Below, one piece after another: positions 7,511 to 31,020 of a stretch of DNA of 36,937 nucleotides. A program made the translations under genes and the position numbers. Under the pieces are notes generated by a model. That model searched no databases, had not been told where the DNA came from, and was given only the letters and a program-made list of their open reading frames with translations. Source of the DNA: Candidatus Peregrinibacteria bacterium RIFOXYA2_FULL_41_18. Its GTDB lineage: Bacteria > Patescibacteriota > Gracilibacteria > UBA1369 > UBA12470. The DNA lies in NCBI GenBank assembly GCA_001788795.1, contig MFXH01000015.1, forward strand, positions 1 through 36,937. The letters are read 5' to 3'. Position 1 is the first letter of the stretch, and the number at the start of each line of letters is the position of its first letter.

Positions 7511-9724
7511 ATGAAAAACATTTCTCAAAAGTTGATTATCGGATTGTTTTCTTTTGTTGCTGCTGTTTTGCCGGTTTGGGGTTCCGTATCCTTTGCCGTA
7601 ACTTTCAGCTCCGATGTTTTCGCAGGCGACTTAAAAGAATACGCAATACGAACCGAGCATTTTCAAATAGAATATAGCCATATTATAGGTTTGCAGTCTG
7701 ATAGCGATGCAGATGGTATTTCTGATGTTATCGAAGAAGTTGCCGAGTACGCCGAGAGATCTTGGGATTTGGAAGTTGATCAGTTGGGTTTCAGCGAGCC
7801 TGTTGCCGATGGAGAATATGTTTATTTGATCTTAGATGATAGGGATGAGTACCTCTATGAGGGTACGATGGGAGTTACGTGTTATTTTGATGATTTTTCT
7901 CTCTATATGGCTATAGATCCATGGATGTCTTCGGATTATTTGAAAGTGACGGTTGCTCATGAGTTTATGCATGTTTTGCAATTTGGACTGGATTTTTATT
8001 TCCAAGAAAGTTATCAGGATATTTATTTTGCTGAGGCTACGGCGGTTTGGATGGAGGATTATGTTTATGACGATATAAATGATTATGTCGGATATCTTAC
8101 GGATTATTTCGATTATCCGGATTATTCGGTTTTCGCCGGTGTTGTCCCCGATGGAACGTTTTTTGAATATGCGCTTGGGATTTGGCCCAGATTCTTGACC
8201 GAGTATTATGATGATAACAGCTTGGTTTTGGACTCGTGGAATCAAATTATTGAGCTTGATAGTGTTGGAAATGGTGGTTTTTTTACCGTTTTTAGCGCTG
8301 TACAAGATGTAGTTGAGGCTGAAGGTGATGATATCGATGAGGTTTATCAGGATTTCTCTATTTGGAATTTAGCAAAAGAAGATTACTACGAAGAGGGGGA
8401 TGAATATCCCGATGTTTACATATTGAATACTTGGAGTTCTTATCCCGTTGTTAACAAAATGCCTTCTCCCGGTATGAGGCCGGCTTTGTATGGTTCAAAT
8501 TATATCGCCTTTGATGTGCCTTCAAGCGGAGATGATTTCAAGTTTACTCTTACGAAACCTTCAGGGATTGAAATGGGTGTTTCTTTTGTTCCGATGGACG
8601 GGGCTGATTTTGACCTGAACGCTCTTGATAAAAATATAATTGGAGAGGATGAGACTTATGTCGAGTTGGTTGTCGAAAATGCTTCCGATTATGATAAGGT
8701 TTATGTTGTGGTATCTCCTCTTGGGGCGCAGCTGACCGGGAATACTTCCACATTTGATGAAGGATATGTTTATTATTATTCGGCGGATTTCGGCGACTAT
8801 AGTGAGAGCGAGGAGGTTACCAGTTCTACAGATGTGGTTATAGAACAAGAAGTGAAGGAAGGGGAGTCGTCTTCATCTAATTCCGATGGGGTTTCCGTCG
8901 ATGATGAGCTGATACTTGCTGTGAAAGCTTCTGATGATGAGTCTGTTACTTTGAGTTGGAACAGGTTGAGTGATCTCGGGATAGATCATTATCTTCTTTA
9001 TTTCGGTTCAGAGAGTGGAAATTATATGGGAAGTGATGAGGTGGATCGTGCATGGACTACGACGTCTTCGGTTAATGAACTTGCTCCCGGAGAGGTCTAT
9101 TATTTCATGATAGAGGCTTATTCTATCGATGATGAACTTCTTATATCTTCAAGTGAGGTTGCCGCTGAGACTGCGACATTTTCTTTTTCCGATATGGACA
9201 GTTCCGATGAAGCTTATGATGCGGTGATAGGCTTGTATGAAATAGGCATTATAGAAGGTTATGACGATGGTACGTTTGGGGCTGAAAATACAGTGAATAG
9301 AGCGGAATTGCTCAAGATCCTTATCGAAGGAGTTGGTACTATTGAGATTTCCGATGATTACGCGAATTGTTTCGATGATGTTTCGGACGAGTGGTATGCG
9401 AAATATGTTTGTTATGCCAAGGAGCAAGGTTGGGTGAGTGGGTATGATGATGGGAATTTTTATCCCGCTCAAACGGTCAATAAGGTTGAGGCCTTAAAAA
9501 TGCTTCTTATGGTTTTCGGTTATGAACTTGAAGAGGGATCTTATATATCAGGAGGAATGCCTTATAGTGATACTTGGCCTACATCTTGGTATGCGATTTA
9601 TGTAGATACGGCTTTCGATCTTGGTATTTTGAGCGAAGAAGAAGGCGGTGTTTTTGAGCCCGAAGAGGGAAGAAATAGGGGAGAGATTTGTATGGAGTTG
9701 TGGGAGCTAATTAACAGTTTGTGA
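7511..9724 (+). CDS. Secreted MXAN_6640-like putative metalloprotease with FN3 and SLH repeats
   Basis: This 737-residue exported protein is probably held on the cell surface. It has a signal peptide (about 1-38, hydrophobic 9-29), a DSDADGISD calcium-type loop near 65, and a gluzincin-like site H150-E-F-M-H154 with E175 in EATAVWMED 21 residues later. That spacing and the following acidic VYDDINDYVGYL segment recall the MXAN_6640 putative metalloprotease family. A fibronectin type III-like domain spans about 463-555. Three S-layer homology repeats follow at about 558-605, 620-665 and 684-737; the third is degenerate. SLH repeats normally bind cell-wall polysaccharide, so a wall-anchored surface protease is the natural reading. 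The protein is very acidic and rich in Asp, Glu and Tyr. The gene stands alone on the plus strand and its 3' end overlaps the next minus-strand gene by 18 bp. Protease activity is inferred from motifs only. Confidence 0.85.
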   Translation: MKNISQKLIIGLFSFVAAVLPVWGSVSFAVTFSSDVFAGDLKEYAIRTEHFQIEYSHIIGLQSDSDADGISDVIEEVAEYAERSWDLEVDQLGFSEPVADGEYVYLILDDRDEYLYEGTMGVTCYFDDFSLYMAIDPWMSSDYLKVTVAHEFMHVLQFGLDFYFQESYQDIYFAEATAVWMEDYVYDDINDYVGYLTDYFDYPDYSVFAGVVPDGTFFEYALGIWPRFLTEYYDDNSLVLDSWNQIIELDSVGNGGFFTVFSAVQDVVEAEGDDIDEVYQDFSIWNLAKEDYYEEGDEYPDVYILNTWSSYPVVNKMPSPGMRPALYGSNYIAFDVPSSGDDFKFTLTKPSGIEMGVSFVPMDGADFDLNALDKNIIGEDETYVELVVENASDYDKVYVVVSPLGAQLTGNTSTFDEGYVYYYSADFGDYSESEEVTSSTDVVIEQEVKEGESSSSNSDGVSVDDELILAVKASDDESVTLSWNRLSDLGIDHYLLYFGSESGNYMGSDEVDRAWTTTSSVNELAPGEVYYFMIEAYSIDDELLISSSEVAAETATFSFSDMDSSDEAYDAVIGLYEIGIIEGYDDGTFGAENTVNRAELLKILIEGVGTIEISDDYANCFDDVSDEWYAKYVCYAKEQGWVSGYDDGNFYPAQTVNKVEALKMLLMVFGYELEEGSYISGGMPYSDTWPTSWYAIYVDTAFDLGILSEEEGGVFEPEEGRNRGEICMELWELINSL

Positions 9725-10796: not shown

Positions 10797-13700
10797 TTAT
10801 CTATTATCTGTTGTTTTCTTGTGCCACCAGACCAAGATAGGCGTGGCGATGAATATTGAAGAGTATGTACCGACTATGATTCCGAATGCCAATGCGAGTG
10901 TGAAATAGAAAATTGAACTTGCGCCGAAGATCAATAAGGCGATGAGCGTGATCAGTGTTGACATTGAGGTGTTGATCGAGCGTGCTATTGTCTGACTGAT
11001 TGAAGCGTTCGCCGTTTCGTAGAAGTTGTGATGAGAACCGATTCTTAGGTTTTCTCTTAATCTATCGAATACTACGATTGTATCATGTACGGAGAAGCCC
11101 AGTACCGTCAGAAGCGCGGTGACGAAAAGTGCATCTATTTCCGTTCCCATGAAATGACCGAGAAGTGCGAATGCACCTACTACTATTATTACGTCATGAG
11201 CGAGGGCGATTATTGTGCATACGCCGAATCTCCATGGGCCGATTGAACGTGGGACTTTTCTGAAAGCTATAGAGACATAGATCGCGATCATCATTATTGC
11301 CACGACAATTGCTATTATTGCTTTCTTTGTTGTTTTTGATCCTATTGTAGGTCCGACTGTCGTGAATCTTATTTCTTCAAGTTCACCAAGGGTTGATGAG
11401 AATTTCTCTATTATTGAGTTGTGTGTAGTTTCCGATATGTGTTTGATTCTTATGATGAAATTTCCCTCACCGGTTTTTACGATTACGGGGGTGCCGAATT
11501 CGGTTGTTGTTGTCGCTATTTCAGTTGTTTCGGCAGTACCGCCTGTTAACATGATGCTTTCTCCCAGAATTTCAGATTCTTCAATCGCAACAGTTTCCGC
11601 CGAAGGGCTGTTTAATTGTTCTTGTACTTCGTTTAGAGTTTGGGTGATTTGATCTGAAGTTACTTCTGTGTTTGTGAATTTGATTTCCATCAAAGTTCCT
11701 CCCTTGAAGTCCAAGCCCCAGTTAAGTCCGAATACCATTGTTGAAACCAATGAAACTATTACTGCAATTGCTGAAATTCTGATCCATGTTTTTGCCGAGT
11801 CCATTATTCTGAACTCTTTTCTTGGTTTGTTTGAAACTCCGAACAACCAGTTTTGCTCCAGCGATTTTTGACCTGCTGTGCTTCGCAGGAATGTTTTTGT
11901 TATGCTGATTGCCGTAAACATTGAGATCAAGATACCAAGAGCAAGGTTGAATGCGAATCCTCGTATGATTGATGAACCCAAATAGAATAAGATTGCGCAA
12001 GTTATCAATGAAGAGAAGTTTGAGTCGCGAATTGAGTCCCAAGCTCGTTTGAAGCCGGTTTCAATTGCGAGTGCATGAGGTTTGCCGGCTCTTAATTCTT
12101 CTTTTATACGTTCGAAAATCAATATATTTGCGTCAACAGCCATACCTATAGAAAGTACGACACCGGCGATACCGGCGAGTGTTAAGGTTACAGATTCCGA
12201 TAATACGAATGTGACAAAGAAAAGTACGCATACCGCCAAAACAAACGTGGTGAATTTTTCGAAATTGCCTTCGTTCGACTTGAGTATTGTTGCGATAATC
12301 GCACCGAAAACTATAAGTCCTCCGAGGATTGCAAATGGAAGAGGTAGAGCGATTTTTATCGCGAATAGAAGGATTATAGAGTAGATTGCGAGCGCCAATA
12401 CTGCGAGAACTCCTGGGAGTCTGTAATACAAAATCATTGCGAGTGCCAATATGATTACGCCGATTAATCCTCCGTGGAGACTTTGGGTTAGAGCTTCTGA
12501 GCCGAGTGTTGAGCTGATTGTGTATTGTCCTGCAAGTGTTATTGGAGCAGGAATTGCACCTGTGTTGAGGTCGCGAGCCAATTCAGTTGCTTCTTCGACC
12601 GAGAACTGACCGGTTATCTGTGCAGTTCCGCCGGAAATTTTTGTATTAACCGTAGGTGCCGAAATCAAATCTCCTCCAACGAAAATTGCCAAAGGTTTTC
12701 CTATATTTCTTCCTGTTATTTCTTCGAACATAGTTCCGCCCTCTTCGTCGAATTGAATTGTTACGTAAGGCATGTAGCTGCTTTGGTCAAACTGAACATC
12801 GGCGTGTACGAAGTGTTCACCGGTAAGTTCGGTCGTGACCCATGAGTTTGGAAGGGTCAAATATATGATTTTGTTTAGAGCGTATTCGTTTATGTTTTCA
12901 AATTTTGCGTCTGTGACTTTTATTAAATGATATCCGTATTGCGTTTCAACGATTTCCGATAATTCTCCGATTTCGGTTTCGAATGCTGCTGTTTCAAATT
13001 CAGGAACCATTGCTCCTTTTCCGAAAAAACCGAGGTCGCCACCGTTAGCTCCCGTACCAGCGTCTTCAGAATACTCTGTTGCGAGCGAGGCGAAATCTTC
13101 ACCGTTTAAGGCTTTTTCACGTATGTCTGAAATTAACGTATAGGCTTCATCTTTTGTTCTATCTGATGCGAGTTGAGATTCGTCCCAGCCGATAAGGATG
13201 TGGCTTGCCTGTACTTCTGTTTTCTGTTCACCTTCTTGGTGGTCTTTTACCTGTATTAAGAAATATCCTTCGAGGTCTATGATGTTGCCGCTAAGGTCGT
13301 ATGTTTGGCCATCAATGCCTGATATTACTTCCGATACGATGTCGCCCGCTTCGAGTCCTTCGACGTATGGCTTAATGTCTTCCGATATATTGTTGATATC
13401 TGTCAGTTCGGTTTCCGTGCGTATTGCGAATTCCGAATAGGTTGTTTCTTGTTCATCTCCCACGGTTATGAAGTCTTCGCCGTCAAGTATTCTGTTCAAT
13501 GCATCTTCCGCATATCCGAGTCTATTTGCTTTTTCAGTTTCATCAAGAGTTGAGCTCTGTTCCTTGAATTCGAGTTGGATTGATTTACCCAAAACGGATT
13601 TAGCCTCTTCAAGATCCGTTATGCCTGCTAGTTCTACGATTATATGATATTCATTTCCGACATTTGATGCGTAGATGTTTGGTTCAGAGACTCCAAGTCC

Positions 13701-13961
13701 GTTTACGCGTCTTGTAATTACCTCTTGTACGCCATCTACTAAGCTTTCTTTATCGGTTTCTGTAACTCCGCTCAAATCGATTTTGTAATCAAGCTGAGTT
13801 CCACCTTGCAGGTCCAGACCCAAGTTGATCTTCATCTCTTGCAAGAATTCAGATCCCGAAGGAAGAACCTTCTCTTGTGTTGAGTAGGGGAGGTTGATGA
13901 ATCCGAGGATCGCCGTCATGACGAATATGGCGATTAGTTGCCATGTGAGGTATTTTTTCAT
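10797..13961 (-). CDS. secDF: Fused SecD-SecF with an inserted PpiC/parvulin domain
   Basis: SecDF uses the proton gradient to help pull proteins through SecYEG. The 1054-residue chain joins SecD and SecF. SecD has TM1 (about 5-22), INLGLDLQGGTQL, the first-periplasmic-domain end LAIFVGGDLISAP, and the signature GMAVDANILIFERIKEEL. SecF starts near 720 with GLDFKGGTLMEI (about 750) and has GFSVHDTIVVFDRLREN. Inside the SecD P1 domain, residues about 250-350 form a parvulin-type prolyl isomerase domain (VQASHILIGWDE, DFASLATEYSED, GGDLGFFGKG, GYHLIKV). Residues about 150-245 look like a second, degenerate copy (GDIVSEVI, GYFLIQVKD). The SecD membrane part has two more hydrophobic segments than usual between TM3 and TM4. 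The gene follows the cupin by 14 bp and ends at a strong terminator. Substrate chaperoning on the outer face of the membrane is the natural inference. Confidence 0.95.
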   Translation of the reverse strand: MKKYLTWQLIAIFVMTAILGFINLPYSTQEKVLPSGSEFLQEMKINLGLDLQGGTQLDYKIDLSGVTETDKESLVDGVQEVITRRVNGLGVSEPNIYASNVGNEYHIIVELAGITDLEEAKSVLGKSIQLEFKEQSSTLDETEKANRLGYAEDALNRILDGEDFITVGDEQETTYSEFAIRTETELTDINNISEDIKPYVEGLEAGDIVSEVISGIDGQTYDLSGNIIDLEGYFLIQVKDHQEGEQKTEVQASHILIGWDESQLASDRTKDEAYTLISDIREKALNGEDFASLATEYSEDAGTGANGGDLGFFGKGAMVPEFETAAFETEIGELSEIVETQYGYHLIKVTDAKFENINEYALNKIIYLTLPNSWVTTELTGEHFVHADVQFDQSSYMPYVTIQFDEEGGTMFEEITGRNIGKPLAIFVGGDLISAPTVNTKISGGTAQITGQFSVEEATELARDLNTGAIPAPITLAGQYTISSTLGSEALTQSLHGGLIGVIILALAMILYYRLPGVLAVLALAIYSIILLFAIKIALPLPFAILGGLIVFGAIIATILKSNEGNFEKFTTFVLAVCVLFFVTFVLSESVTLTLAGIAGVVLSIGMAVDANILIFERIKEELRAGKPHALAIETGFKRAWDSIRDSNFSSLITCAILFYLGSSIIRGFAFNLALGILISMFTAISITKTFLRSTAGQKSLEQNWLFGVSNKPRKEFRIMDSAKTWIRISAIAVIVSLVSTMVFGLNWGLDFKGGTLMEIKFTNTEVTSDQITQTLNEVQEQLNSPSAETVAIEESEILGESIMLTGGTAETTEIATTTTEFGTPVIVKTGEGNFIIRIKHISETTHNSIIEKFSSTLGELEEIRFTTVGPTIGSKTTKKAIIAIVVAIMMIAIYVSIAFRKVPRSIGPWRFGVCTIIALAHDVIIVVGAFALLGHFMGTEIDALFVTALLTVLGFSVHDTIVVFDRLRENLRIGSHHNFYETANASISQTIARSINTSMSTLITLIALLIFGASSIFYFTLALAFGIIVGTYSSIFIATPILVWWHKKTTDNR

Positions 13962-15718: not shown

Positions 15719-16378
15719 TTATCTTCCTTCTGTTGGTCTTACAGCTGGTCTTATGTTTGGTTCGTATTGTGGAGTAGCCCCTGTCGCTGGTCCTCTTGGT
15801 GCTGGCGTTGAAGCCTGAGGAGGAGTTGCAGGTCTTTGTGGGGAAGCTGCTACTGGAGGAGGTGTAGTAGTAGGTCGTGGAGTAGCCCCTGTCGCTGGTC
15901 CTCTTGGTGTTGGCGTTGAAGACTGAGGAGAAGTTGCAGGTCTTTGTGTGGAAGCTGCTACTAGAGGAGGTGTAGTAGTAGGTCGTGGAGTAGTAGCCCC
16001 TGTTGCTGGTCCTCTTGGTGCTGGCGTTGGAGACTGAGGAGGAGTTGCAGGTCTTTGTGGGGTTACTGTTATTGGTTGTTCTGTATTTTTTTTCTTGTGT
16101 CTTGGCTCTTCTTGTATCAATCCGAGTAATCTTAATCTTAAAGTTATTTGTTCTAGTAAAAAATTAAGACTATCTTGATCTAATAATCTTTGTGTTAACC
16201 ATTGCGTTGCATTTCTTTGTACATCTAATAGCGATTCATTGTCTAAGGCTTCAAGTCTTTGTCGTAGCGTATCGACATTTCTTTTTTGTGCCAAATCTCG
16301 AATTTTTCCAGTTATTTTGCTTCCGTCTCTTCCTAGGCTTTTTAAGTTTACTGTGCCCTGAGGTGTTGTTTCTGGCAT
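15719..16378 (-). CDS. Pro/Thr-rich tandem-repeat protein of unknown function
   Basis: I do not recognise this protein. Its N-terminal 100 residues are helical and charged (LRQRLEALDNESLLD, LTQRLLDQDSLNFLL, ITLRLRLLGLI). Its C-terminal half is a low-complexity Pro/Thr/Ala region made of about three copies of a 36-residue unit containing QRPATPPQSPTPAPRGPATGAT; the last copy is partial. There is no signal peptide or membrane segment, so it is probably cytoplasmic with a disordered tail. I place the start at the Met of MPETTPQG. The first possible ATG (16396) would leave only about 5 nt after the predicted transcription start, while 16378 gives the 20-nt leader seen for the neighbouring genes. 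It diverges from the 945-aa gene and the two share an interlocked promoter region, so they may be co-controlled. Confidence 0.65.
   Translation of the reverse strand: MPETTPQGTVNLKSLGRDGSKITGKIRDLAQKRNVDTLRQRLEALDNESLLDVQRNATQWLTQRLLDQDSLNFLLEQITLRLRLLGLIQEEPRHKKKNTEQPITVTPQRPATPPQSPTPAPRGPATGATTPRPTTTPPLVAASTQRPATSPQSSTPTPRGPATGATPRPTTTPPPVAASPQRPATPPQASTPAPRGPATGATPQYEPNIRPAVRPTEGR
15774..16062. repeat. 108-111 bp tandem repeat inside the Pro-rich gene
   Basis: The DNA motif starting GTAGCCCCTG recurs at 15774, 15882 and 15993, so the period is 108 then 111 bp (36 and 37 codons, the extra codon being one Thr). Copies are nearly identical at the DNA level with mostly isolated substitutions, which suggests recent duplication. 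The third copy is cut short near 16062. Confidence 0.9.
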
Positions 16379-16407
16379 ATGATTGATAATAAACAATTAG
16401 GTAATCG

Positions 16408-16437
16408 AATTTAGCTTGACATGGCAATGGTTGTCAA
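16408..16437 (-). promoter_or_regulatory. Candidate minus-strand promoter of the Pro/Thr-rich gene
   Basis: Minus strand: TTGACA (16432-16437), an 18-bp spacer and TAAATT (16408-16413). It overlaps the plus-strand promoter so fully that each -35 lies within the other's spacer. The -10 is only a moderate match. Confidence 0.4.
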
Positions 16438-16443
16438 TATAAA
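16416..16443 (+). promoter_or_regulatory. Sigma-70-type promoter of the 945-aa gene, with inverted repeat
   Basis: TTGACA (16416-16421), a 16-bp spacer and TATAAA (16438-16443), which predicts transcription from about 16450 and a leader of about 19 nt without a Shine-Dalgarno sequence. TTGACA and the downstream TGTCAA (16432-16437) form a 6-bp inverted repeat with a 10-bp centre, which could be either two divergent -35 boxes or an operator. Confidence 0.6.
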
Positions 16444-16468: not shown

Positions 16469-19306
16469 ATGGTTGAGAGCAAGTCAGTTCTTGGAAGAGT
16501 TGGTGATTTTGATGTTGGAACTCTTAGTGGATACCCATTAATTAAACATGCTGTTTCCGGAAGACCTCTTGAGTTAGAGGAGGCCTGTTCGGTTTCCGAT
16601 GCGAGTGCGGCTTGTTTAGATGAAATGAGGCGCTCTATGGGTGCATTAATGTCTATTGGCCGTAGGGCACTTTCAAGGGTAGATCCTACTTTGTCGATAT
16701 TCGATTACTTACCTATTTCAAAAGATCAGTTAGATCTCTATGGAGATTCTAATCGGAGGTTATGCTGGGCTCCAACTGAATTTCTTGAGATGGGGCTATT
16801 GCCTTATGCTACAGATCCGGATCATGTAAGGTGTTTGGTTTGGGGGTATGTTCTCCACTGTGTAAAGGATAATATGGGAGATATTATGGCTCGTATTACT
16901 GGGTCGTCATCTATTACTCATCAGAGTCTATTATATGTTGTAGGGTCAATGAGTAGTTGTGGTTTATGGCAATCTCTGCATAGTTGCGGTAGAAACGGTT
17001 TGGCTCTTATGGGCTTTGTTGATGCATTGAGGCCGGATCAATTGGAGCCGTATGTAAATGAGACTTCTAGAGACGGTGCTTTTATGCTTATGGTTGATCC
17101 CACTATGGTTCCGCCGATGGCTACTAATTCTGAATTCGGTATGTTTCCTAATGTCGAGAGAAAAATCCCTGACGCGAAGAGGATGACTCCTCCAAAAATT
17201 GCTCGTTTATTGCAATTGCCCGGTTTAAGAGAACATATTGATAATGATCGATTTAAGTTTGTTCGAACTGTTGGTACGGATTTGGCTATTATTGCTGAGT
17301 ATTTCTGTGAAAATGATGATGTTGTTAATATGAATGCGGTTACGGTTGAAGATGTTAGAACGTGGTTGGTTTCGAAATTTAAAAAACACAATCCTAGTTT
17401 GAATGTTGCTCGTTATCAATTATTGAGGTTGCACGGTACTAGTTTTGAACGTGCTGGTGATTTTATTCAGCAGTATATTCTTGATTTGCATGAAAAAGAG
17501 CATCCTTGGTTATTTGAAGTTGCTGGCATCTCGAAAGCTGATTGCGTTGGTTATAATCCATTGTTTGTTCTATATTCTCGTGTTGCTTGTAATATTGAGT
17601 CGGTTCCCGAATCTCGCGTTGTTGAATTGGGGAGTGTTTTGCCTGGTCATGATTGGATTAATGTTTTTTGTGATGGTGATGAGAGCCCTTTGAATTTGCT
17701 TTCTCATATTGGTGAGGTTAGTAGTCGTGTTTCCGAAGTAAGTGTGTCCCAGATCCGTTGTGATGTTAATGATGTGCATGAATTTAATCGATCAGTATTG
17801 GGATTCCTATCTTCTTACGGGTTGAATGTTTGTGATAGATGGGTTGAACATCCTGGGTTTGAACTTTTAGATCCTATGGAAATTTCTAGGTATGCTAATG
17901 AGAATTCTGTGAATGCTTTTGATGAAATTCTCAAGGGTATTGTTACGCGTGTGAGTGAAATGTCTCCTCGTGAATTGTTGTGTTTTAAGCATGAAGTTGT
18001 CGATCGTTTGCCTGAACACAAGCGTGCGGATGCACAGGCTTTGATTACCGAACTTGCAGAAAGAATGGCTCTTAGTATTAGTTTTGATGATTTGGAGCCG
18101 GAAATCTTGATACAAGTTGCAAGAGGGCAATCTGTATTGCCGGCTGGGTCGATTTTGTTACCCGGTGATGTTCGATATGAAGAGCTAGTTGGTAAAGTTG
18201 CTATTGCTGATCGAATTGGGCCTTTGGCTGAGAGGGCTTTGTTGCAAAGACATCTTAGTGGTGTTCGCGGTGAACAGGATATTGTTTCATATCTTATGAG
18301 TCACAGAGATTCTATCCATCCTGCCGAATTGGTATTACCTTATCCTGATGCTCCGAATCGTGAGGTGATTCGTGAATTTGGTGATTCGCCTGATCTGTTG
18401 GCTTTGTTGCAGATGACAACGTTGCTTGTTTATCTCGGATATACTCCTGATCAAATTATGGCTGAAATTTCTGCTCAAGCACAATTATCTGTTGCTGGAT
18501 CGCATTCATCTTTGACAACTGTCGGTCTTGAGTGGGAACAGGTTGGCGCGTCGTCTGAAGGGCTAATTGTAGATCCTAAGGTGTTTCCTTGGTTATTTAA
18601 TGTTTTGCCTGCCGGCAATGATAAGAGCTCTAATGAACTAATGACGTCTCCTACACTTGGTGTTGCGATGCAGGGATTAATGATGTCTTTGGTAACAGAT
18701 CCCAGATTTGGTTTTATGCGTATGGATCGTTTGTTTGGACAAGCCGGGGCCTCTCCGAGAAGTTCATTGCATTTAAATATGGCTGTTCCTCGAGATTTGC
18801 CATTTGAGCATGGTGTTGTTGGAAGATTTATGTCTCCTCTAAATTTGGCTAGTTGGTTTATTCATGGATCAGGTGACGATGCTATATCGGGGTTTACAAG
18901 TAATAATGCTGGTGTTGTTAGAGGTTGGAGGGGTAGGTCTTTACTTGATGTACTTGGTGATAAGAGGCCTGATGCTAAAGTTGAATTGAAAAAACTTGCT
19001 ATTGAACCTGATGCTTCTCATTTGCGTGATATGGCACAGTTTCAAATGCTTGGTTCTGCTGGTATGCAGCGTATGAGGGAAGAAGCAAGATTACCTTTGT
19101 CTCCAAGTGAGAAAATTATGGCTGGGTTGTATGAATCCTTTTCTAGGGAGATTCGTTCTGTTGGAAGAGGTGGTGTCGAAGTTTCTCGTGAAGTTGTAGG
19201 TAGGTATGCATCACAAGTAGCTACGGAATTAGGTGTAACTTGTGGTGTCCAAAAGACATCAGGTATTGTTTTAACTGATCATCGAGGGGTTGTTGTTCCG
19301 AAGTAA
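16469..19306 (+). CDS. Large unrecognised protein with a possible amidoligase-like C-terminal domain
   Basis: I do not recognise this 945-residue protein by overall similarity. It has no signal peptide or membrane helix and appears soluble and cytoplasmic. The N-terminal 640 residues are mixed helix and strand with several Cys and His but no motif I can name. In the last third, four spaced motifs recall the GCS-like COOH-NH2 ligase (amidoligase) fold: GLEWE (E688, E690), NELMTSP (E723), SSLHLNM (H768, N770) and AKVELKKLAIEPDAS (E839), followed by helices. In that family the first acidic pair and later Glu/His bind Mg-ATP. Spacing is shorter than usual and the final Arg of the ELR motif is Lys here, so this is a hypothesis. 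The gene is monocistronic with its own promoter, and its end lies 3 bp from the convergent gpmI stop. A lineage-specific protein is likely. Confidence 0.7.
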   Translation: MVESKSVLGRVGDFDVGTLSGYPLIKHAVSGRPLELEEACSVSDASAACLDEMRRSMGALMSIGRRALSRVDPTLSIFDYLPISKDQLDLYGDSNRRLCWAPTEFLEMGLLPYATDPDHVRCLVWGYVLHCVKDNMGDIMARITGSSSITHQSLLYVVGSMSSCGLWQSLHSCGRNGLALMGFVDALRPDQLEPYVNETSRDGAFMLMVDPTMVPPMATNSEFGMFPNVERKIPDAKRMTPPKIARLLQLPGLREHIDNDRFKFVRTVGTDLAIIAEYFCENDDVVNMNAVTVEDVRTWLVSKFKKHNPSLNVARYQLLRLHGTSFERAGDFIQQYILDLHEKEHPWLFEVAGISKADCVGYNPLFVLYSRVACNIESVPESRVVELGSVLPGHDWINVFCDGDESPLNLLSHIGEVSSRVSEVSVSQIRCDVNDVHEFNRSVLGFLSSYGLNVCDRWVEHPGFELLDPMEISRYANENSVNAFDEILKGIVTRVSEMSPRELLCFKHEVVDRLPEHKRADAQALITELAERMALSISFDDLEPEILIQVARGQSVLPAGSILLPGDVRYEELVGKVAIADRIGPLAERALLQRHLSGVRGEQDIVSYLMSHRDSIHPAELVLPYPDAPNREVIREFGDSPDLLALLQMTTLLVYLGYTPDQIMAEISAQAQLSVAGSHSSLTTVGLEWEQVGASSEGLIVDPKVFPWLFNVLPAGNDKSSNELMTSPTLGVAMQGLMMSLVTDPRFGFMRMDRLFGQAGASPRSSLHLNMAVPRDLPFEHGVVGRFMSPLNLASWFIHGSGDDAISGFTSNNAGVVRGWRGRSLLDVLGDKRPDAKVELKKLAIEPDASHLRDMAQFQMLGSAGMQRMREEARLPLSPSEKIMAGLYESFSREIRSVGRGGVEVSREVVGRYASQVATELGVTCGVQKTSGIVLTDHRGVVVPK

Positions 19307-28386: not shown

Positions 28387-31020
28387 CTACTTTTTATCTA
28401 TTTTTACAATTTCAGGAAGTTGCTCGTCTTTTTTTGCTATATAAAGAGCATTTGGCTTCTCTCCTGTTCTGTTGTCTTGAGCTAAATGAGCTACGAAAGG
28501 TGTTTTTTCTGATGCTAGTTCTGAGTTTATTGTTCTATGCGTTGCATCAACATCTATTATCTTTACGTATTGTATAAGTTTTCTTGCCGTATCCGCAGGA
28601 CAACCTTCTTTTATCAAAGCTGATTCAATATCTCCTATTAAAGTCTGTTGTGCTTGTGCGATGAGTGGTAATTCTAAGATTTCGGCAGCTCTTATTTTAA
28701 ATGCTGCTGTCCCCATTTGCGCATCTAATGTTCTTTGCAGGCTATGGCTTCCGAATGATGGAGAATATTCCGTTCCTTCTGGAAACATTTCTATTATTCC
28801 GACCGCATTTGATGAGTCGGCCGGTTGGGCAGGAATTCCTGCGTGATCATCTGTAGATTCCCATCTTTTTATTGTCATGATCGCATATTTTCTATTTTCT
28901 CTTTTTTGAATTTCTTTATTAACTATTCTCACGAACGTTGCTATATGTCTTCTTTCTGTTGCCGTGCATTCTTCGAATATTTTCGGGTGTACGAAAACCA
29001 AGTCTGTTATGTTAGTGCAGAATGTTCCGTTTCGCGAGTCTTTTCCTTCGAGTACTGTTGATTCTTTTTTTACAGATTCCGGTTTCCTTGAAGGTTTGAG
29101 ATTTTGAGGTAAGTTCTGAGGTCTGCATTGTACCAAATTAATTTTCAATACTCCTCCGCTTGCAGCCTCTACCGTGAATTCACAATCTACTTCATAGCCG
29201 AGTTGTTTTTTTAATTTCTGTACCATGTATCTTATTACTCCCCCAAGTTCGGTATATTTTAATAATCCTTCGCATGTGATTGCTCTCCATCTTATTGGAT
29301 CGTCAAATTTTCCACCCATCCCGAAGGTTTTTATGTTATTCGGCAGTGCGCCTTCGCTGTCTAATTCTTCTTTTGTTTTTTCTTGTATTTCATTCGAGCT
29401 TAATTTTAGTACGTGTATTTTTCTTTGAGGTACTTCTCCTTTGAAACCTGTCGCCTTCGGTTTGCCAAGCATTACGAATTTGCTTCCAGTTCCATCAACC
29501 ACAGCTCTGCCGAGTCCTATAGCTAGAGCCATAGATCCTTGTCCAGGGTCTACTCCATCTCCTATTACCTGTGGAGCGAAGGATGTTGCCATACCGGAAA
29601 ATCCCGGATAGAAATAGTCTCCATGTTTTTCCCCGTTTAGTACTTGCACAAGTATGCCCATTTCTTCATCTTCTTGAAGCAGATTATGTAGTTTTCTGTA
29701 TTCCATCACGTTTTTTGTGAATACCGACCCGTAAACTTTTAGGATGGCTTGTTTGAATTTTTCAAAATCCTCTTCGAAATCCCCACAATTTGCCAATTCG
29801 ACACTCTCGTATTGTCCCGCAAATGATGCGCCAAGTCTGTCCTCAAGTTCGCTTGAAGATCTTACGATGATTGGTTTTCCGTGTAATTCTCTGAATAATA
29901 TTGCGAGTTGTCTCTCTCGGTGCGGAGGAAATTTTGCCACCATCATTTCTGTTTCTATTTCTTTATAAATGGCTTCCGGTGGATCTTCTCCTCGTTGATA
30001 ATAGGCTTTTAACATAGAAGTTCTTCCACCTACATTTGGATTTTCACTTCTTACTTCTTTAAACACATTTGATCCTAAAAATCTTGAAGTGTTTTGTTTA
30101 AGACATCTCTCCAATAGTTCCTCCATTTTTGGATCTAATCCTTCAGTATCTTTATCTTCCAATGCTGCGTATGCCAGTATTATCCCAAGTGCTTTTGCTC
30201 CAATCCTTCCTGTAGCCAAAGAGTCGGGCATTTGATCTATGATTGCCCTTATATGTTTTGCTTTTAAATGATTCATTCCGCATTCTATATGATGCTTATC
30301 TTGAGTCATTAATCTTCTTATCAGTTGTTCAAGTGCTGTTGTTTTTCCTATTTCATATATTTTTTCTTTTGAGTTTTCCGCTATCTCAACTATTCCAACC
30401 AATTCATCTATTGTTGCAACTTCGATATCTGATCTTATTCTCTCTTCTTCTTTATCTTTAAAGAATTTTTCTCTTAATTTTTCTTCGTCTTGTGTAAGAT
30501 ATTTTGTCCTCACCGATTCCAAACATTCGTTTCTTGTTCTGTCATCGAGTTGAGCCAAAGCTCTTATACTTGTTACGGTTCTCCACTTCAAAATATCTTC
30601 ATGTGTAGGAGATTCCGATTCTTTTTCTCTTCTTGCATCTTGGTTAGCTTTTTTATCTATTCCAGCATGTCCACCTTCTAGTCCTTTGTCATATACGATT
30701 CTCCTTATTCCTGCCATTACTTCCCATAATTCTTTATTACCTCTTATGTTATCTGCTATCTCTCTAAAAAGAGCATATGATATTGCATCTGCTTCTGTTG
30801 GCATTTCCTTGAGTGCCTGTGCTTCTAAAGTTTTTTTTATAATTTCATTACCAATATCTCCCAGTTCAGAGAGTGCTTCTAGTGCGCTTTTTATATCTGT
30901 TAAAGCTTGATCCTCTCCTTCGGTTTTCTTTCTGAGGATTTCTCCGATTTCGCGGATGCTATCATCGCTTATTCGTCCAAGTCTTTCTAGAGTGGCCCCA
31001 TGGGATGGTTGTGCATCCAT
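28387..31020 (-). CDS. PEP/pyruvate-binding (PPDK-N) domain protein without transfer or PEP-barrel domains
   Basis: The 877-residue protein contains the ATP-grasp domain of the PEP synthase/PPDK family in its middle: IIVRSSSELEDRLGASFAGQYES (split here at R386, the usual RSS motif), GILVQVLNGEK, FYPGFSGMATSF, ALAIGLGRAVVDG and a final LVQCRPQN. It lacks the phospho-His swivelling domain and the C-terminal PEP/pyruvate barrel, so it cannot be a normal PEP synthase. The region near residues 720-780 (KRWESTDDHAGIPA, PSFGSHSLQ) resembles the C-terminal part of the PEP/pyruvate-binding family in which W-G-S-S-D and GSHFFQ are usual. About 330 N-terminal residues are charged and helical with no match I know. 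It may phosphorylate or dephosphorylate a protein or glycan. The gene leads the M24 peptidase operon. Confidence 0.8.
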   Translation of the reverse strand: MDAQPSHGATLERLGRISDDSIREIGEILRKKTEGEDQALTDIKSALEALSELGDIGNEIIKKTLEAQALKEMPTEADAISYALFREIADNIRGNKELWEVMAGIRRIVYDKGLEGGHAGIDKKANQDARREKESESPTHEDILKWRTVTSIRALAQLDDRTRNECLESVRTKYLTQDEEKLREKFFKDKEEERIRSDIEVATIDELVGIVEIAENSKEKIYEIGKTTALEQLIRRLMTQDKHHIECGMNHLKAKHIRAIIDQMPDSLATGRIGAKALGIILAYAALEDKDTEGLDPKMEELLERCLKQNTSRFLGSNVFKEVRSENPNVGGRTSMLKAYYQRGEDPPEAIYKEIETEMMVAKFPPHRERQLAILFRELHGKPIIVRSSSELEDRLGASFAGQYESVELANCGDFEEDFEKFKQAILKVYGSVFTKNVMEYRKLHNLLQEDEEMGILVQVLNGEKHGDYFYPGFSGMATSFAPQVIGDGVDPGQGSMALAIGLGRAVVDGTGSKFVMLGKPKATGFKGEVPQRKIHVLKLSSNEIQEKTKEELDSEGALPNNIKTFGMGGKFDDPIRWRAITCEGLLKYTELGGVIRYMVQKLKKQLGYEVDCEFTVEAASGGVLKINLVQCRPQNLPQNLKPSRKPESVKKESTVLEGKDSRNGTFCTNITDLVFVHPKIFEECTATERRHIATFVRIVNKEIQKRENRKYAIMTIKRWESTDDHAGIPAQPADSSNAVGIIEMFPEGTEYSPSFGSHSLQRTLDAQMGTAAFKIRAAEILELPLIAQAQQTLIGDIESALIKEGCPADTARKLIQYVKIIDVDATHRTINSELASEKTPFVAHLAQDNRTGEKPNALYIAKKDEQLPEIVKIDKK

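Follow-up and report, generated by a model that had tools for sequence, protein, structure and literature searches.

What does a 945-residue protein with no convincing family in Pfam, NCBIfam, PHROGs or PADLOC do in a bacterium with a genome of 1.24 Mb? The window, by which we mean the whole stretch of 36,937 nucleotides analysed here, is contig 15 of that genome (99% complete). An initial annotation had placed a 945-aa ORF at 16469-19306 on the forward strand, and this ORF is real and intact, with both its ATG start and its stop codon present. The same annotation called the product an orphan that might hide an amidoligase or GCS-like ligase domain. The word orphan holds in that no convincing database family claims the protein, but four homologues exist, one of them a paralogue in the same genome. 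The C-terminal part taken by itself found nothing noteworthy in PHROGs, and a role in anti-phage defence was set aside, PADLOC having returned no noteworthy match. The large gene is laid out as follows.

16469..19306, forward strand: whole ORF, 945 aa, predicted to be an amide ligase of GS/GCS fold preceded by a long helical N-terminal region (ORF and homologues)
16469..18388, forward strand: N-terminal region, residues 1-640, predicted to be nearly all-helical (AlphaFold2 model)
17183..17638, forward strand: best conserved N-terminal block, residues 239-390, helical, pLDDT roughly 54-86 by block (model and alignment)

Profile and protein searches recovered, besides the paralogue, one homologue each in GW2011_GWC2_39_14 (G051), the Loclat bin (G073) and GW2011_GWF2_39_17 (G024). 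The family thus comprises five genes in four genomes, all within one order of Peregrinibacteria, with pairwise identities of about 28-47%. No further convincing member was found in ~350 genomes of the class, 380 genomes of the phylum or viral contigs; C-terminal-only, N-terminal-only and full-length profiles run against class and phylum gave weak local matches only beyond the five genes, and no relative was found in the PDB. The N-terminal and C-terminal parts occur together in every family gene, and an alignment-based search of 341 genomes with residues 1-574 found no relatives outside the family. Kinship with unannotated proteins of 894 and 1497 aa encoded near two of the homologues was rejected after a negative blastp. 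This is a small, lineage-restricted family that has so far gone unannotated.

We then turn to the putative active site, whose elements lie in the C-terminal part.

18506..19048, forward strand: predicted catalytic core, residues 680-860, with GS/GCS-like strand order (model, Foldseek, alignment)
18518..18547, forward strand: motif 1, T-x-G-x-E688-x-E690-x-x-[GA], predicted Mg ligands on the first strand (T, G, E and E invariant in five proteins)
18632..18652, forward strand: motif 2, N722-E723-x-x-[TS]-x-P728, with E723 the predicted metal ligand (alignment)
18764..18784, forward strand: motif 3, [SA]-x-H768-x-[NS], predicted nucleotide- or metal-binding His on a strand (model and alignment)
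18941..18964, forward strand: family-specific [LF]-L-D-x-x-G-D-K, residues 825-832, with L826, D827, G830, D831 and K832 invariant (alignment)
18980..18991, forward strand: motif 4, E839-x-[KRH]841, counterpart of the GCS/amidoligase E-x-R (alignment)

The four motifs from which the hidden domain had been proposed, GLEWE (686-690), NELMTSP (722-728), SSLHLNM (765-771) and VELKKL (838-843), are present in that order, and all five proteins keep them. In the five-protein alignment, 22 of the 181 positions in residues 680-860 are invariant. This stretch contains eleven Glu and His residues, and the five that are invariant (E688, E690, E723, H768 and E839) are exactly the five ligands of the initial scheme (P = 0.0022, conditional on five being invariant among eleven). 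The metal ligands of glutamine synthetase (GS) follow the order ExE, E, H, E; judged from sequence, the five predicted ligands of the family keep this order of the GS/GCS superfamily without exception. Two caveats raised at the outset also hold. The spacing is compressed, at 35, 45 and 71 residues against 43, 76 and 101 in YbdK; the family members hold it constant, at 34-36, 45-47 and 66-71 residues, whereas YbdK and two CPR amidoligases have 43, 76-77 and 87-101 and PafA has 54, 60 and 101. The Arg of the canonical ELR is indeed replaced, the position two after E839 being K, K, R, K and H across the family, and the Asn of H-x-N in motif 3 is Ser in one homologue.

Structure prediction points the same way. 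Modelled blind with AlphaFold from four sequences (pTM 0.79, pLDDT 72), residues 600-932 had the motifs on or beside predicted strands and showed the GS/GCS-like sheet that a hidden domain of this kind should have, at moderate quality. Foldseek comparison with the PDB filled places 1-11 with YbdK, its Salmonella homologue, PafA, Dop and glutamine synthetase chains, the best being YbdK (1r8g; E 1.8e-3, prob 0.98). Against BFVD, amidoligases made up most of the named matches in the top 22, with a phage amidoligase best (E 3.2e-4, prob 0.99). The full-length AlphaFold2 model, also from four sequences, was poor (pLDDT 54), with PafA and Dop as top PDB matches and glutamine synthetase seventh. TM-scores for the matches of the 600-932 model were only about 0.3, with rmsd of 10-14 A and moderate model confidence, and the matches therefore support assignment to the superfamily but not atomic detail. 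Taken with the conserved motifs, these ranks strongly suggest that the C-terminal domain has a GS/GCS fold, which on the predicted model we consider very likely; the initial proposal is borne out for fold and active-site pattern, with catalysis as a prediction.

Sequence comparison alone did not reach this far. The suggested comparison with amidoligase_2 and GCS profiles gave no score beyond column-shuffled controls: in profile-profile alignment, 34, 5 and 27 of 100 column shuffles scored as well for PafA/Dop, GCS2 (a set of five YbdK-like proteins) and Amidoligase_2, respectively, and some motifs fell in register despite these shuffle-level scores. Neither hmmsearch against the PDB, permissive hmmscan nor hhalign against these three sets gave anything above controls. 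PF04107 (GCS2/YbdK) gave no match by hmmscan, nor did PF12224 (Amidoligase_2) by hmmscan or in a search of the own genome; the control genomes were silent for PF12224 too, and the model does match in four other genomes of the phylum.

The best pointer to function is a divergent partner gene, which the initial annotation had overlooked.

15719..16396, reverse strand: partner, 225 aa with TTG as start or 219 aa with the ATG at 16378, pI 11.3 (divergent small ORF)
15722..15739, reverse strand: RPTEGR at the partner's C-terminus (3 of the 780 scanned ORFs have the motif, each one a partner)

A small basic ORF of 126-225 aa lies head-to-head upstream of four of the five family genes, and its products share a pI of 10.8-11.3 and a low-complexity tail; in G024 the divergent neighbour differs, being a 300-aa protein. 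Three partner proteins end in R-[PT]-[PTS]-E-G-R plus 0-4 residues, and a loosened version of this motif at the ORF end was found in only 3 of the 780 ORFs scanned, every one a partner. Leave-one-out HMMs of the N-terminal part of the partners recovered that of G073 (2.6e-4), the paralogue's partner (2.7e-3) and, weakly, that of G051 (0.05). The window's own partner was not recovered in this way; what ties it to the others is its position, composition, tail motif and promoter site. Partner similarity is highest (blastp 2e-5) for the two enzymes that resemble each other most (47% identity). In the probably disordered tail of the window's partner (within 15719-16396, reverse strand), a Pro/Thr/Ala-rich unit (TPAPRGPATGAT...) recurs as near-repeats, about three in all, which suggests that duplication lengthened the linker.

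The two genes also share a promoter-like site.

16416..16437, no strand assigned: face-to-face TTGACA-N10-TGTCAA, overlapping divergent -35 boxes and/or an operator (two genomic sites only, one per module copy)
16438..16443, forward strand: probable -10 box TATAAA of the large gene, spacer 16 (sequence)
16408..16413, reverse strand: possible -10 box TAAATT of the small gene, spacer 18 (sequence)

The intergenic gaps measure 72-98 bases and contain TTGACA facing TGTCAA in four loci, with a shortened version in G024. Across the 1.24 Mb of the own genome, each of the two copies of the module has one TTGACA-N6-12-TGTCAA site and there are no others; the reversed control pattern does not occur at all. 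A functional link between the large and the small gene is, in our judgement, highly probable.

The module is flanked by iPGM and a nucleotidyltransferase gene, and these two are directly adjacent in three relatives (G001, G013 and G040); the enzyme and its partner were therefore probably gained or lost as a unit. A sister genome (G002) carries unrelated genes at the same spot, which suggests a hot spot for lineage-specific genes. These are two in number (L054:3290-5427), encoding a protein of 429 aa and a methyltransferase-like one of 288 aa. A phage origin was rejected because viral contigs hold no relatives and the neighbours are housekeeping genes, and the GC content of the module (0.416) is similar to that of the window (0.407), hence no sign of recent foreign origin by composition.

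Other genes nearby have features of their own. A SecDF fusion of 1054 aa (10797-13961, reverse strand), similar in length to the SecDF of relatives, carries, between its first SecD domain and the P1 head, a rotamase domain of the PPIC type (parvulin). A 737-aa protein (7511-9724, forward strand) has three SLH domains, a weak fn3 and a weak DUF6055 match, and an 877-aa protein (28387-31020, reverse strand) matches PPDK_N only at 346-652, with no domain on its first 345 residues. Near the paralogous module, on contig 16 of the own genome (L021:9564-10808, reverse strand), a glutamate-5-kinase-like gene (AA_kinase and PUA) encodes an N-terminal helix-turn-helix domain and is followed by aldehyde-dehydrogenase (ProA-like) and ProC-like genes.

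How might the pair work? We propose, as a reading with about an even chance of being right, that the large protein works as an ATP-dependent amide ligase of GS/GCS fold and that its small partner is thereby modified or conjugated. We infer that the C-terminal ~250 residues would form a compact glutamine-synthetase/GCS-fold domain acting as an ATP- and Mg-dependent carboxylate-amine ligase, and ligase activity as such seems probable. The long helical N-terminal region may position or recognise the substrate. The large and small genes would form a two-gene module under a shared, dedicated divergent promoter, with the small basic protein, made of an N-terminal domain and a tail, as the most likely macromolecular substrate; we put this assignment slightly below an even chance. 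The enzyme would phosphorylate a carboxylate, perhaps that of the near-terminal Glu of R-[PT]-[PTS]-E-G-R, and then form an amide bond, such that the small protein would be either modified or, in the manner of Pup and PafA, attached to a target. As further residues follow the tail Glu, it could serve in the way of Pup only after trimming or by another chemistry. A stronger version, which we think unlikely, is that this is a new protein-tagging system of Peregrinibacteria in which a GS/GCS-fold ligase, with no recognisable sequence kinship to PafA, conjugates the dedicated small tailed protein via its near-terminal Glu to targets in cells that lack a proteasome.

Where a palindrome separates two divergent genes, one of them often regulates the other, and for this reason the main alternative is that the ligase acts on small molecules, for example to form gamma-glutamyl or other amides, and that the small protein is a DNA-binding regulator at the TTGACA-TGTCAA palindrome. 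The top PDB match, YbdK, is a carboxylate-amine ligase of the small-molecule type; many regulators are arranged in this way, divergent from their target across a shared palindrome, and here the partner has a strongly basic composition and only the module carries the palindrome. However, neither HTH nor any other DNA-binding family matches the small proteins, a repressor would not usually carry a long low-complexity tail with a conserved motif at its end, and the palindrome could be nothing more than two face-to-face -35 boxes. Ligation of small molecules would also leave the N-terminal region of roughly 580-640 residues without explanation. We therefore regard this alternative as rather unlikely.

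Quite improbable, in our view, is that the superfamily fold serves another activity on the partner or on other proteins, as a Dop-like amide hydrolase or deamidase or a McsB-like phosphotransferase. McsB is a kinase of related fold and appears with Dop among the PDB matches, and the basic position after E839 accepts Lys, Arg and His, not Arg alone. PafA and Dop, moreover, share a common fold and catalyse opposing reactions (PMC3511204). Yet McsB ranks just twelfth (prob 0.25), and the five conserved residues appear to fit the GS/GCS ligand order, with nothing specific to guanidino kinases. Chance resemblance of the motifs on an unrelated, perhaps structural, fold could appeal to the shuffle-level profile scores and the low TM-scores but is very improbable, as the invariant Glu and His are exactly the five predicted ligands, and PDB and BFVD, as well as the full-length model, all rank the same superfamily top.

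If the amide ligase reading is right, an amide-ligase family has been escaping sequence profiles, and its likely partner is already in hand. Whether bacteria with ultra-small genomes use ubiquitin-like tagging is a question on which this two-gene module bears. Even with a small-molecule substrate, the GS/GCS superfamily would gain a compact core joined to a large new helical region.

Set against known systems, the family shares with glutamine synthetase (PF00120) the ligand order ExE, E, H, E, and GS chains are among its fold matches, but there is no sequence match, the core is much shorter and the long N-terminal region is unrelated. GCS2/YbdK (PF04107) provides the best PDB fold match, and profile alignment sets TVGLEWE of the window protein on TLGIELE of YbdK; by contrast, the family has no Pfam match, a compressed core, a much longer protein and a conserved small partner. 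With Amidoligase_2 (PF12224) and phage amidoligases it shares the motif order G-x-E-x-E, Glu, His, E-x-R/K and the top viral structure matches. There H-x-H becomes H-x-[NS] and E-x-R becomes E-x-[KRH], with order kept and ligands invariant; the amidoligase spacing of 43, 76-77 and 87-100 shortens to 35, 45 and 71 in the window protein, which adds its long N-terminal region. PafA/Dop (PF03136) is matched in fold by both models, the family H-x-N lies in register with C-H-E-N of PafA, G-D shortly precedes the last Glu in both, and both involve a small partner with a conserved Glu near its C-terminus. However, the catalytic core is C-terminal in the family and N-terminal in PafA/Dop. A true Pup/proteasome pathway is rejected: PF03136 gave nothing over cut-off in the 89 genomes of the order, the own genome included, and the proteasome (PF00227) is absent from the own genome, while controls matched. 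The likeness to Pup is therefore one of analogy, not membership. The partner exceeds Pup in length, includes an N-terminal domain and carries its Glu 3 to 7 residues from the end; four of five loci have a small partner, and in three of these the conserved Glu lies close to the C-terminus without being the terminal residue. Pup itself is small and disordered, its C-terminal Glu being the point at which a member of the carboxylate-amine ligase superfamily joins it (PMC3511204), and a proposal recounted there from Iyer et al. 2009 traces Pup back to modified peptides on which amidoligases acted.
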